This document shows, in pieces, positions 36,004 through 41,685 of a DNA stretch of 64,000 bases. The position numbers and the translations under genes were made by a program. Positions within the stretch are counted from its first letter, which is position 1, and each line of letters starts with the position of its first letter. The stretch is from Alphaproteobacteria bacterium (GTDB taxonomy: Bacteria > Pseudomonadota > Alphaproteobacteria > Micropepsales > Micropepsaceae), in NCBI GenBank assembly GCA_947467345.1, contig CANIHD010000001.1, positions 186,001 through 250,000 of the forward strand, given 5' to 3'. The notes beneath the pieces were generated by a model. That model saw nothing but the letters and a program-made list of their open reading frames with translations. It ran no database searches and was not told the DNA's origin.

Positions 36004-37701
36004 CTAAGCGGCGACGACCGTCTCGCTCGTAAGCGACGCTCTGGGGAGATGGACACGAACCGTCGTGCCGGCACCCAACACGGATTCGAGCTCCATGGAG
36101 CCGCCATGCAGATGCGAAAGCGCGCGCACCAAAGCGAGACCGAGGCCGGTGCCTTCCTTAGAGCGCGTATATTCGTTCTCGACCTGCTCGAAAGGCTGGC
36201 CGAGACGCTTGAGGCTTTCCTCCGGAATGCCGCGGCCGGTATCGGAGACTGCGATTTCTACGCCTTCAAGGCCTGCCTTCGCGGAGACATGCACCGACCC
36301 ACGCGCCGGCGTGAATTTCACGCCATTGGAAAGCAGATTGATCAGAATTTGCATTACAGCGCGGCGGTCGGCGTAAATCTTCTTCGCTGAAGGGGCGATG
36401 CTGAAATCCAGCACGATGGCCTGGCGCTCGGCCAAAAGCTTGACGAAGCGCAACGCCTGATTGGTCACATCCTCAAGATCGAATTCCTCCAACGCCAATT
36501 CAAAACGGCCGGCTTCGATCTTCGACATATCCAGAATGGAATTGATCAGCTCCAAAAGGTGCGAGCCGCTTTCATTGATGAGACGCGAATATTCCTGATA
36601 ACGCGGTCCGCCCACCGGCCCGAACATCTCCCGCGTCATCACTTCCGAGAAGCCGATAATCGCGTTTAGCGGCGTGCGCAGTTCATGGCTCATATTGGCG
36701 AGGAAGCGCGATTTCGCGCGCGACGCGTCTTCGGCCAGATCGCGCGCTTCGATCAACGCGCGTTCATGGGCTTTGCGCTCGGTGATATCGCGCGACACGG
36801 CAACGACATCGCTGCCCTCCGCATGCGCACCGCCCGCGGGGCGGCAGCGGAGTTCTATCCAAACATAGCCGCCGTCTTTGCGCTTCAAACGCACTTCGGC
36901 GCTCACCGCGTGGCGGTTTCGTCCGGCGCCCTCGAAGGCTAAAGCAATGGTGTTGGCATCTTCGTGATGGGTGAGAACGCTGATGTTCATGCCCGCCATT
37001 TCTTCCGGGCGATAACCGAGCAGCGAGAAGGATGCCGGACTTGCAAACAGAATGCGTCCGTCGGCGGCATGGCTTGTGATGAGATCCATGGCGTGTTCGG
37101 CAAGAAAGCGATAGCGCGCCTCGCCCTGTTCGGCCGCGAGGCTGGCCTCGACACGCCGGTGATGCGCGGCAATGGCAATCAACGTGGCCTGTATCATAGC
37201 AACGAACAGCGATAGTCCGACGGTATAAATCGTGGTGCCGGTCAGACGTGACGGCGGCAACATGCCCGTCAAATGCATCGCCAACAGGATGAGCGGGCAA
37301 GCCAACGCAAAGAGGCCAGAAAATAGCACCTTGCGGCTGCGCCCTGACAAAGCGCCCTCAAGCGGCACTAACATGAGCCAGACCAGAAACAGGGAGGAAA
37401 GCCCGCCGGTAAGCGCGCTGAGTAACGTGATCAGCCCCGCGTACAGCGCCAGAGCGGTGGCTTCCAACACCCGCATGCGGATGGGCAGTTTAGCCAATTT
37501 GGCCAAACCCAATGGCGCAATGAGTCCAAGCAGAACTAGCGCTTCGACGCCAAACGGCGCGCCGACATAGGAAAAATAGCCAAGCGCAAGGGCAAAACCA
37601 AGGGCGCCCTTCATTGTCTGCGTGCGAATGAAATCGCGCCGATGCGCGTTTATGATTCCCGCGGGCACATTTCGCGATCGGAAATACCTGAAGAATCCCA
37701 T
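36004..37701 (-). CDS. DivJ-like membrane histidine kinase with PAS domain
   Basis: About 565 residues from ATG 37701. Five to six membrane helices fill residues 30-180 with almost no periplasmic loops. A PAS domain (about 190-310, RYRFLAEHAMDLITSH) follows, then the H-box FLANMSHELRTPLNAIIGFSEV with His339 and an ATPase domain with NLLSNGVKF, DTGRGI and GTGLGLAL. Layout and the sequence EMFGPVGGPRYQEYSRLI after the H-box match DivJ/PleC/PdhS kinases that act on DivK in the CtrA cell-cycle pathway. No regulator is adjacent. A GTG at 37758 is an alternative start. A CtrA-like site lies about 140 bases upstream. Confidence 0.85.
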   Translation of the reverse strand: MGFFRYFRSRNVPAGIINAHRRDFIRTQTMKGALGFALALGYFSYVGAPFGVEALVLLGLIAPLGLAKLAKLPIRMRVLEATALALYAGLITLLSALTGGLSSLFLVWLMLVPLEGALSGRSRKVLFSGLFALACPLILLAMHLTGMLPPSRLTGTTIYTVGLSLFVAMIQATLIAIAAHHRRVEASLAAEQGEARYRFLAEHAMDLITSHAADGRILFASPASFSLLGYRPEEMAGMNISVLTHHEDANTIALAFEGAGRNRHAVSAEVRLKRKDGGYVWIELRCRPAGGAHAEGSDVVAVSRDITERKAHERALIEARDLAEDASRAKSRFLANMSHELRTPLNAIIGFSEVMTREMFGPVGGPRYQEYSRLINESGSHLLELINSILDMSKIEAGRFELALEEFDLEDVTNQALRFVKLLAERQAIVLDFSIAPSAKKIYADRRAVMQILINLLSNGVKFTPARGSVHVSAKAGLEGVEIAVSDTGRGIPEESLKRLGQPFEQVENEYTRSKEGTGLGLALVRALSHLHGGSMELESVLGAGTTVRVHLPRASLTSETVVAA

Positions 37702-38032
37702 TCGGGGGCGGGTGCCTTGCGCTGTAGCTGCTGCAGAGGAGAAGCCCCTGCACGCCACAACACTGACAAACCTCGCTTAATTCGACGTGAATACAGGCCG
37801 TATGCGGGAACGTAAGGAGCCAATTTGAGGCTGCGACGTTTACCTTCCGTTAAGGAGTCGAACCCGATGCGAGGTAATTGCTGCAATTGCTGCGAAGCCC
37901 GTAAACAGTCCGTTAGAGCTGAACCATAGTTCCCTGCTCGAAACGTCGTATGCGGACATTTTTAGCAATCCGCTTCAGTCTCCCGCAAAGCGATCGGGCC
38001 AATCTCTCGGGTGAGAGAACGAGGCGCCGCTG
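37702..38032. other. Divergent intergenic region upstream of the DivJ-like kinase
   Basis: 331 bases with no coding signal. It contains a CtrA-like site at 37839-37853, a short imperfect repeat AATTGCTGC twice (37876-37898), and presumably promoters for both the kinase (minus) and the small exported protein (plus). No clear -35/-10 pair was seen. Confidence 0.4.
37839..37853 (-). promoter_or_regulatory. CtrA-like site upstream of the DivJ-like kinase
   Basis: Read on the minus strand the site is TTAAC-N6-TAAAC, one mismatch from TTAA-N7-TTAA(C). It is about 140 bases from the kinase start. CtrA control of a kinase that feeds into the CtrA pathway would make a feedback loop, but the match is imperfect. 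Confidence 0.35.
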
Positions 38033-38510: not shown

Positions 38511-38981
38511 ATGACCTGCGCCGCGATCATGACGCCCAATCCGCATAGCGTGCGCGCCGACCACACTGTGGGCCGCGCCGCCGATGAGCTGATCGCCCAC
38601 CGCTACATTAATCTGCCCGTAGTGGATGAAGCGGGCAGGCTTGTCGGCCTGTTCGGCATGCACGACCTTCTCGCGCTTTTGGTGCCGCGCATCGCAATGG
38701 TGGGCGATCTGGTACCGAATTTGCGCTTCATGAGCGACGATCTCAGCGTCCTACGCGAGAAATATAGCGCATTCCACGACACGCCGGTTTCGCGCGCCAT
38801 GAACAAGGAGCCGATTGCCCTCTATGCTGACACCGCGATTGTGCAGGCGGTCCGCCTGTTCTGTCATGACCATATGACCTTGCCGGTAATTGAGCAGAAA
38901 ACGCGGCGCTTGGTCGGCATCGTGTCCTATTGGGATGTCACGCGAGCCGTTTCGAGCGTAGGAAAAGCCGAACACGTATGA
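38511..38981 (+). CDS. CBS-domain pair protein
   Basis: 156 residues made of two CBS motifs forming one Bateman module: AAIMTPNPHSVRADHTVGRAADELI with LPVVDEAGRLVGLFGMHDLL, then VSRAMNKEPIALYADTAIVQAV with LPVIEQKTRRLVGIVSYWDVTRAV. Such stand-alone modules bind adenine nucleotides and regulate a partner protein. ATG 38511 opens the first CBS motif; no strong ribosome site is visible. The stop overlaps the start region of the lipoprotein gene, so the two may be cotranscribed. Confidence 0.88.
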   Translation: MTCAAIMTPNPHSVRADHTVGRAADELIAHRYINLPVVDEAGRLVGLFGMHDLLALLVPRIAMVGDLVPNLRFMSDDLSVLREKYSAFHDTPVSRAMNKEPIALYADTAIVQAVRLFCHDHMTLPVIEQKTRRLVGIVSYWDVTRAVSSVGKAEHV

Positions 38982-38998
38982 TGGGTGGCGCTTCCAGA

Positions 38999-39259
38999 AT
39001 GCGCAGCGCGCTACTCATTGCTGTCGCTTTCGCAATCTCCGGCTGCGCAACAGGCGCAAATCAGGATGCGCAAGGTTCCGGCCCCGGCTATGGGATCGGC
39101 TATGCCGATGGTTGCGCCAGTGCGGGCCGGGACACCGTGCCCCGACGCGATGCCCGACTCTATGCAGATGACGCTGACTATCGCGCCGGTTGGCAAAGCG
39201 GCCGCTTGGCGTGTGCCAAACCCGACAACGAAGGTCTGGGCCAAGGTCTTGGGCGCTGA
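38999..39259 (+). CDS. Small lipoprotein with repeated Y-x-x-G-aromatic motifs
   Basis: 86 residues with a signal peptide and lipobox (AFAISGC, Cys at about 17). The mature part repeats a tyrosine/glycine motif: YGIGYADGCASAGRD and YRAGWQSGRLAC, with ARLYADDADYRAGW between them. Similar short alphaproteobacterial lipoproteins carry the same two motifs with one Cys each, perhaps forming a disulfide. ATG 38999 (GGGTGG upstream) gives the best signal peptide; ATGs at 38978 and 38981 would overlap the CBS gene stop. Function unknown. Confidence 0.75.
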   Translation: MRSALLIAVAFAISGCATGANQDAQGSGPGYGIGYADGCASAGRDTVPRRDARLYADDADYRAGWQSGRLACAKPDNEGLGQGLGR

Positions 39260-39269
39260 GCTGCAGCAT

Positions 39270-39286
39270 TTAACTTTTCGTTAACC
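39270..39286 (+). promoter_or_regulatory. Perfect CtrA-type binding site
   Basis: TTAACTTTTCGTTAACC matches TTAA-N7-TTAACC, the CtrA consensus, without mismatch. It lies in intergenic DNA 80 bases upstream of the 43-codon ORF that starts at 39366, about the distance expected for a CtrA-activated promoter. Confidence 0.6.
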
Positions 39287-39365
39287 AAATTGGCCGACGA
39301 TTCCCTCAGCGTCCTGCTAGTGATTTGCGATATTGTCCGCATACGGCCTACCCGAGGAGGGAGCC

Positions 39366-39497
39366 ATGTCGTTGGCGCAATTGGTGACCGGTCGTTTCCG
39401 CGAGCGTGAGGCTGGCGAGCCGTACATCGTCGGTGGAGACTTGAAGCCGAAATATTGGCTCGGCCGATTTCTCGCTTTCGTTTCAGCCAAGCGCTAG
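39366..39497 (+). CDS. Candidate 43-residue small protein under a CtrA-type site
   Basis: ATG 39366 follows a strong GAGGAGGGAG ribosome site and opens 43 codons to TAG 39497. The product, MSLAQLVTGRFREREAGEPY followed by a GGDLKPKYWLG segment, ends in a short hydrophobic or amphipathic helix FLAFVSAKR. It has no signal peptide. I do not recognise it. Codon use is similar to neighbours, and the ribosome site plus the perfect CtrA-type site 80 bases upstream argue that it is real. It converges with the beta-oxidation gene, 7 bases apart. Confidence 0.6.
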   Translation: MSLAQLVTGRFREREAGEPYIVGGDLKPKYWLGRFLAFVSAKR

Positions 39498-39504
39498 CCG
39501 AATT

Positions 39505-41685
39505 TCACGCCGCCGCCTTCGGGGCAAATCGGCGATAGAAACTATCGCCCTTCGCCGCCATGTCCTTTAGAAGCTTGTTCGGCGCAAAGCGCGGACCATG
39601 TTCCTTCGCGAGCGCGTTGCAGCGATTGACGAACACTGCCGCACCCATCCCGTCGATATACGAAATCGGACCGCCGGTGAAAGGCGCAAAACCCCAACCC
39701 AATATGGCGCCAACATCGGCGTCGCGCGGGTCCAGAATGACGCCTTCTTCGAAGCAACGCGCAGCTTCCAACGCTTGAATGGTTAGAAGCCGCTCCTCAA
39801 GAGCCTTCACCTCATCGTCGGTGCGCCAAGTTTTTTGACGCGCGAACAATTCGGGCCACAGGCGCACGCGCTTCCCGCGCGTGTCATATTCGTAGAATCC
39901 TTCGCCGGCCTTCACGCCGAGGCGACCCGATGTTTCCACCAGCCAAGCCATCAGATCCTCAGTCGGATCGGGCGTTTCTTCTTTCGTCACTTCTTTGCGC
40001 GATTGCCGCGCGATCTTGAGCGCCGTGTCGACGCCTACGGAATCCAACACTTCCAACGGTCCCATCGGCATGCCAGCCATGCGCCCAGCATTTTCCACCA
40101 AAGGCGGCGCGATGCCCTCGACGATCATGCGAAGACCTTCCAGCGTGTAGGTGCCAAAGCAACGCGAGGTGTAGAAACCGCGCGCATCATTCACCACAAT
40201 CGGCGTCTTCTTGATCTTGCGGACGTAATCCATGGCGGTGGCCAAAGCGCGGTTGTCGGTTTTCTTGCCCACGATGAGCTCGACCAGCATCATCCGTTCA
40301 ACCGGCGAGAAGAAATGGATGCCGACAAAGGATTGCGGGCGCACGGAAGCTTCAGCCAGACCAGTAATCGGCAGTGTCGATGTGTTGGAGCCGAAAATAG
40401 CGTTCGTGCCGAGCACGGCTTCAGCCTTCTTGGTGGCTTCGGCCTTCACGCCGCGATCTTCGAACACGGCTTCGATTACAAGGTCCGCATCTTTCAGCGC
40501 GGCGTAATCCGAACTGGGCAGAATGCGGGCGAGGATTTCCGCCTTCTTATCAGGCGTCGAACGCCCGCGCTCGATTTCCTTATCCAGCAATTTCGCGGCG
40601 TGATCCTTGCCGCCATTGGCGCGCTCGTCGGTCGTGTCGATCAAGACGACATCGATGCCGGCCTGTGCCGACACATACGCGATCCCCGCCCCCATCACGC
40701 CGGCGCCAATCACGGCAAGGCGTTTGACGTTCGAAGGCGCCTCTGCGATCGGACGGCGCGCGCCTTTGCCGAGGTCCTGCATCGATTGAAACAACGTGCG
40801 GATCATGTCGCGCGCGGTCGGGCTGAGCAGCATCTTGACGAAATAGCGCGTCTCGATTTTCAGGCCGCTGTCGATATCGACCAAGAGCCCTTCATAGACG
40901 CAAGACATGATGGAGTTCTGCGCCGGATAATTGTCGAGCGTCTTTGCCCGCAACATCGCGTTACCGACGGTGAACACTTGCGCGCCCGCCGAGCTGAACG
41001 GCCCGCCGCCCGGAATGCGATAGTCTTTCTTGTCCCACGCTTGCGTCGAACTCGGACCGGTTTTGATCCAGGCTTTCGCGGCGGCAACGACTTCAGCAGC
41101 GGGCGCAAGCTTGCTTACGATGCCCATGCCCGCGGCCGATTGGGCATCAATGCGCTTCGATTCCAGTATGAACGGCAGAGCCGCCATGGCGCCGATCATG
41201 CGCGGCAGGCGTTGCGTGCCGCCGGCGCCTGGAATGAGACCGACTTGCGCTTCCGGAAAACCAACGCGACCGCGCGGGTCATCCGACATCACCCGGTAAT
41301 GACAAGCCAGCGTCACTTCCAAACCACCGCCAAGCGCCGTTCCGTTAATCGCGGCAGCCACCGGCTTGCCGCACGTTTCCAGCTTGCGCAATGTCTGATG
41401 CACATTCGTCATCAACCCGTAAGCCGTGGCTGCAGCGTTGGAGCCGGCGCGCGTGGCAGCGCCCGCCAGTTCCTCAAGATCGGCACCGGCGCAGAAATTA
41501 CCTTCTTTGGCGCTAGTGATCACCACGCCTTTGACGGTTTTATCGGCGATGATGGTGTCCACAGCTTTGGCGAGATCGGCAACCGCAGCACTCGAGAGAA
41601 GATTGACCGGCTTACCCGGCGTGTCCCACGTCAGCGTTACGATACCGTCAGCATCCAAATCCCATTTGAAATTCGCGAGGTCCAT
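39505..41685 (-). CDS. Fatty-acid oxidation multifunctional protein (enoyl-CoA hydratase / 3-hydroxyacyl-CoA dehydrogenase)
   Basis: 726 residues. The N-terminal crotonase domain (about 1-200) has the oxyanion-hole segments FCAGADLEELA and NGTALGGGLEVTLACHYR, and catalytic Glu region FPEAQVGLIPGAGGTQRLPR. The Rossmann domain of 3-hydroxyacyl-CoA dehydrogenase starts at AVIGAGVMGAGIAYVSA (about 330) with the FVGIHFFSPVERM catalytic His region; the C-terminal dehydrogenase domain repeats follow. FadB/FadJ-like. ATG 41685 has GAGGAAA upstream. It is last in the thiolase-cupin-hydratase/dehydrogenase unit. Confidence 0.94.
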   Translation of the reverse strand: MDLANFKWDLDADGIVTLTWDTPGKPVNLLSSAAVADLAKAVDTIIADKTVKGVVITSAKEGNFCAGADLEELAGAATRAGSNAAATAYGLMTNVHQTLRKLETCGKPVAAAINGTALGGGLEVTLACHYRVMSDDPRGRVGFPEAQVGLIPGAGGTQRLPRMIGAMAALPFILESKRIDAQSAAGMGIVSKLAPAAEVVAAAKAWIKTGPSSTQAWDKKDYRIPGGGPFSSAGAQVFTVGNAMLRAKTLDNYPAQNSIMSCVYEGLLVDIDSGLKIETRYFVKMLLSPTARDMIRTLFQSMQDLGKGARRPIAEAPSNVKRLAVIGAGVMGAGIAYVSAQAGIDVVLIDTTDERANGGKDHAAKLLDKEIERGRSTPDKKAEILARILPSSDYAALKDADLVIEAVFEDRGVKAEATKKAEAVLGTNAIFGSNTSTLPITGLAEASVRPQSFVGIHFFSPVERMMLVELIVGKKTDNRALATAMDYVRKIKKTPIVVNDARGFYTSRCFGTYTLEGLRMIVEGIAPPLVENAGRMAGMPMGPLEVLDSVGVDTALKIARQSRKEVTKEETPDPTEDLMAWLVETSGRLGVKAGEGFYEYDTRGKRVRLWPELFARQKTWRTDDEVKALEERLLTIQALEAARCFEEGVILDPRDADVGAILGWGFAPFTGGPISYIDGMGAAVFVNRCNALAKEHGPRFAPNKLLKDMAAKGDSFYRRFAPKAAA

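Follow-up and report, generated by a model that had tools for sequence, protein, structure and literature searches.

SpoVM and the bactofilin N-terminal peptide are small membrane-targeting peptides or amphipathic helices. Promoters of the CtrA regulon have been described in Caulobacter and Hyphomonas (PMC4287350, PMC7200025, PMC11264516), and TTAA-N7-TTAAC is the consensus obtained by CtrA ChIP-seq in Hyphomonas (PMC7200025). In Caulobacter, most sites from which CtrA activates lie at −35, and additional upstream sites can repress and delay expression (PMC11264516, PMC4287350), as they do at pilA. Non-coding RNAs controlled by CtrA are also known, among them Caulobacter CcnA (PMC8959179).

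The locus described here lies in a 64-kb stretch of alphaproteobacterial DNA (the whole of the analysed sequence, hereafter the window) and belongs to a family of loci that shares the full TTAA-N7-TTAA(C) with these promoters. One subgroup of the family has the downstream half-site in place of the −35 element, as in most CtrA-activated Caulobacter promoters. Unlike in the known regulon promoters, the box in most members lies 67–89 nt before a palindrome and upstream of a recognisable −35, and the conserved palindrome itself (CCGTRYACGG) stands directly 3′ of the −10. Because upstream sites in Caulobacter can repress and delay, activation from the distal box positions is proposed here conditionally. 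By description, the encoded protein is like SpoVM and the bactofilin peptide in being short and basic with a hydrophobic cationic helix, but its family has an N-terminal MLGHLV block of its own. The locus would resemble CcnA in giving a short transcript linked to CtrA; unlike CcnA, it is under protein-level selection and lacks a conserved RNA structure.

The site, the gene and their neighbours

A CtrA-type box of the form TTAA-N7-TTAACC (TTAACTTTTCGTTAACC) is read directly on the forward strand at 39270–39286, with 79 nt between it and an ATG at 39366. A Shine–Dalgarno stretch (GAGGAGGGAG) at 39354–39363 precedes this ATG, and the forward-strand frame at 39366–39497 (MSLAQLVTGRFREREAGEPYIVGGDLKPKYWLGRFLAFVSAKR) translates to 43 aa. 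The first-pass annotation had reported a mismatch-free site ahead of this start, a ribosome site just 5′ of it and a 43-residue open reading frame, and our reading agreed with it on all three. The box is the single occurrence of TTAA-N7-TTAA in the window. The 2.49-Mb genome from which the window is taken (G000) has three TTAA-N7-TTAACC sites and four matches to a reversed control pattern, so the genome-wide count is not enriched. The other two sites lie before mraZ, which is followed by rsmH, and 48 nt before a FlgB-type rod gene (flgB), both of the sort that a CtrA regulon would be expected to contain.

The genome also encodes CtrA itself, which scores 418 bits with the NCBIfam model NF045991 (cut-off 350). 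Independently of that model, a Caulobacter CtrA query matched G000:C13 at 79% identity. With the same query, a CtrA homologue was found in 22 of the 24 genomes tested (G000 and 21 of 23 others), with 75–81% identity over the best match.

Upstream on the same strand lie a gene for a two-CBS-domain protein (38511–38981; PF00571, E 1.6e-22), found in 13 of the 96 genomes of the bacterial family, and a small lipoprotein gene (38978–39259; GYxDGCA...YRxGWxxGxxxC) whose start overlaps the end of the CBS gene and whose product had no confident Pfam match. Of the 29 loci, 28 have a homologue of the lipoprotein gene 5′ of the small gene. Downstream, a FadB-like gene for an enoyl-CoA hydratase/3-hydroxyacyl-CoA dehydrogenase (39505–41685, reverse strand; PF00378, PF02737) is convergent with the small gene. 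A PAS-HisKA-HATPase kinase is encoded at 36004–37758 and ends 1.5 kb from the box. It had been called DivJ-like, placed within 2 kb and offered as a ground for a cell-cycle role. The nearness holds and DivJ (NF050805) is the best NCBIfam model, but its score of 275.8 bits falls far short of the cut-off of 1000. The kinase was found beside the CBS gene in just two genomes, G000 and its relative G002, and the small gene occurs elsewhere without it, so its nearness is no evidence for such a role; a test for a role in the cell cycle is warranted on the better grounds that follow.

A fast-evolving family of small proteins

Used as a lone query, the 43-aa protein had no match in 60 relatives, a blank that reflects the insensitivity of such a search with 43 diverged residues. 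Pfam and NCBIfam gave no family for it at E-values up to 1, and Rfam had no match anywhere in the window. Synteny and profile searches uncovered a family of fast-evolving proteins of 32–48 aa, in which the window copy scores E-values of 2e-17 to 3e-11 with models that contain it. The syntenic position immediately 3′ of the FadB-like gene yielded diverged homologues in three of the six other genomes of the same genus (G002, G004 and G005). They begin with MLLAHLVPGRYG, MLLAHLVSGRYG and MLLARLV, each is preceded by a retained AGGAGG, and in all three the FadB-like gene adjoins the small gene as in the window. In G003 and G006, also of this genus, the lipoprotein gene reaches the FadB gene with the small gene absent between them.

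Profiles and patterns derived from the same-genus homologues reached a second genus. A DNA pattern combining the palindrome with the N-terminal codons was run over all genome contigs and gave 28 matches, 20 of which encode a family protein in metagenome-assembled genomes (19 titled Alphaproteobacteria and one Proteobacteria). A last profile search contributed six further members. In all, 29 distinct members from two genera of one alphaproteobacterial family were examined, one of them (G085) broken by Ns. Loss of the frame in relatives had been named beforehand as the observation that would speak against the gene; the frame is kept across both genera.

The majority of the 96 genomes in the bacterial family gave no detection of the small gene, a result that mixes true absence with detections missed for a protein so short. 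Outside this bacterial family, a sample of 385 genomes from the class yielded no member, with up to 19 candidates scored per genome; among the relatives searched, the order was represented by this one bacterial family. The small proteins thus appear, as far as searched, to be confined to one alphaproteobacterial family. Weak profile matches at L038–L040, L043, L055, L097, L213, L215 and L216 were attributed to chance or left undecided, and were not accepted because they came without a start codon, an MLGHLV block or promoter elements.

Promoter architecture across the family

Of the 29 members, 24 have a full TTAA-N7-TTAA in the 260 nt before the gene, comprising 23 of the 25 outside the window's genus and one of the four inside it. 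The flanking DNA of the same loci has three such sites in 188 kb, a background of 0.4% per 260 bp. The corresponding binomial P of ∼3e-53 assumes independent members, which these, being related, are not. The CtrA box was used in no homologue search. Ten members came from the protein profile alone (G033, G096, G098 and G113 in the first search; L209–L212, L214 and L218 in the last), and the box occurs in nine of them, the palindrome likewise in nine. Among the 28 matches to the DNA pattern, the box was found for 19 of the 20 family members versus none of the eight others. With the relatives included, conservation of the box is on these counts far beyond chance, and CtrA very probably targets the small gene throughout the family.

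The five members in which the full box is missing (G002, G004, G005, L139 and L209) have single TTAA half-sites only. CtrA control may have been lost or weakened in G002, G004 and G005, the homologues from the window's genus, because the full box is absent there. Distances from the start of the box to the palindrome cluster at 35–45, 67–75 and 82–89 nt. In the 35–45 nt group the TTAACC half-site occupies the −35 place, and with the more distal boxes a −35-like TTGTGA or GATTGTC is often present. The position of the box is −35-like in seven members and farther upstream in the remainder, including the window. Box positions in 19 related members gave a resultant of 0.41–0.48 at periods of 10.5 and 10, which is only suggestive of helical phasing.

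In the window, a candidate −10 hexamer (TATTGT, 39331–39336, forward strand) is in register with the TTGTGA-N17-TATAAT-like hexamers that precede the palindrome in relatives, and a good −35 hexamer is not recognisable. Directly 3′ of it, at 39337–39346, stands the palindrome CCGCATACGG, which is present in 28 of the 29 homologues, mostly 25–43 nt from the start codon (72 nt in one member), with a variable last base. This element is newly recognised here, and its conservation is as strong as that of the CtrA box. It should lie over the predicted start of transcription, a position that would suit a repressor site.

Across eight genomes, the palindrome pattern TANNNTCCGTRYACG gave 37 matches versus six for a control. 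We make no claim of a palindrome regulon, as a repeat in G031 explains much of the excess and many other matches apparently fall within coding sequence. The G031 repeats are intergenic (L171, L184 and L195), contain TTCCGTRTACGGAA, which is matched on both strands, and share the palindrome core. In the window genome, L194 (TATTGTCCGTACACGG) has the same order of −10 and palindrome ∼100 nt before the start of an apparently Sel1/TPR-like repeat protein, possibly a second target of the palindrome's putative regulator.

Protein function and competing readings

Two end blocks are common to all 29 members. The N-terminal block is M-L-G-[HL]-L-V, which in the window's genus takes the form MLLAHLV or MSLAQLV; the C-terminal block is basic and hydrophobic (GWLxRLxxxLFRR, or as a pattern GW[LMF]xR[LVF]xx[AL][LI]F[RKH]), and the linker between them varies in both length and sequence. 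The 28 complete members all reach a stop after 32–48 codons. AlphaFold2 modelled nothing but a C-terminal helix at residues 30–42, with a pLDDT of 78 for the block and a low-confidence 61 overall, and this helix is cationic and hydrophobic. The first-pass annotation had described an amphipathic C-terminal helix. The helix is predicted, at low confidence, but the amphipathicity did not hold up in the window copy, whose hydrophobic moment of 0.35 is not above shuffles (p 0.79); the helices of several relatives do exceed them. Composition and the low-confidence model point to a protein that is probably membrane-associated, with a window copy that is not significantly amphipathic.

Function has two main readings: the protein may associate peripherally with the membrane, or it may be a peptide that binds a partner. 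The second accepts a real, CtrA-controlled gene and has the protein bind its partner through the two end motifs. It might then serve as an adaptor or inhibitor, acting on the neighbouring lipoprotein or on a protein of the envelope, of division or of the CtrA pathway. We regard this as possible, if clearly the less probable of the two. Two short conserved blocks joined by a free linker resemble linear motifs, the predicted structure shows no compact fold, and the lipoprotein gene is a nearly constant upstream neighbour (28 of 29). However, W, F, L and R abound in the C-terminal block, as they do in membrane-binding peptides, and G003 and G006 have the lipoprotein without the small gene.

The connection to CtrA could also be doubted if the box were a relic or belonged to another promoter and the window gene, perhaps like those of sister species, were transcribed from an ordinary sigma-70 promoter to which CtrA is irrelevant. 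G002, G004 and G005 fit this picture in having TTGC...TATACT-like promoters without the full box, but the window copy retains a perfect TTAA-N7-TTAACC without a good −35 hexamer. Moreover, the flanking genes are convergent or upstream on the same strand, which leaves the small gene as the only obvious target of the box. We consider it unlikely that CtrA plays no part here.

A CtrA-controlled regulatory RNA like CcnA, with an incidental reading frame, would likewise have a short single transcript, as predicted here, with its own conserved promoter, and such RNAs have precedent (PMC8959179). This is very improbable given how the sequences vary. Among the 24 members from outside the window's genus, the second codon position of the N-terminal block hardly varies and the third does, amino-acid motifs are kept at both ends, and Shine–Dalgarno stretches are found in many members. 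Folding of the transcripts gave a mean z of −0.05, with no excess and no consensus structure. Codon-position variation together with the lack of RNA structure is the pattern of a translated gene. Among 22 members, pN/pS was 0.20/0.53 in the N-terminal block and 0.55/0.57 in the remainder; the overall ratio is high (median 0.82), and selection outside the end blocks is therefore weak. Frame and amino acids are conserved across species, as in a protein-coding gene, and 39366–39497 is probably a genuine one, overlooked so far and below the usual annotation size. That frame and site are both accidental, as the blank lone-sequence search and the genome-wide count no higher than its control might suggest, is already ruled out for practical purposes, since up to 29 genomes retain the frame, the end motifs, the palindrome, the box and the synteny.

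Taken together, we find it probable that this is a real gene, activated by phosphorylated CtrA via TTAACTTTTCGTTAACC, whose product is a small peripheral membrane-associated protein. Phosphorylated CtrA would bind the box and turn on the promoter at ∼39331–39345 from an upstream position, or in some relatives from a box at −35, and the palindrome over the predicted transcription start may be where a second factor acts. The product would be made during the CtrA-active portion of the cell cycle, and would be basic, with a hydrophobic N-terminus, the variable linker and the cationic hydrophobic C-terminal helix. The family, the frame, the box, the palindrome, the synteny and the CtrA gene are seen in the sequences themselves. 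We infer the binding and activation, their timing and the membrane association from the genomes compared, and a cell-cycle role is suggested on the same footing, given that three of the four members in the window's genus lack the full box. It is rather doubtful that the protein is a lineage-specific cell-cycle effector, confined to one short period of expression per cycle by CtrA activation and a dedicated second regulator at CCGTRYACGG, and acting on the membrane, pole or divisome.

Being compact and conserved, the promoter lends itself, in a cultured relative, to direct tests of its dependence on CtrA, of where the box lies and of what the palindrome does. A conserved CtrA site can expose genes that fall under annotation size limits, and here an unannotated small-protein family without a Pfam or NCBIfam model is added to what is probably the CtrA regulon in a little-studied group of Alphaproteobacteria.
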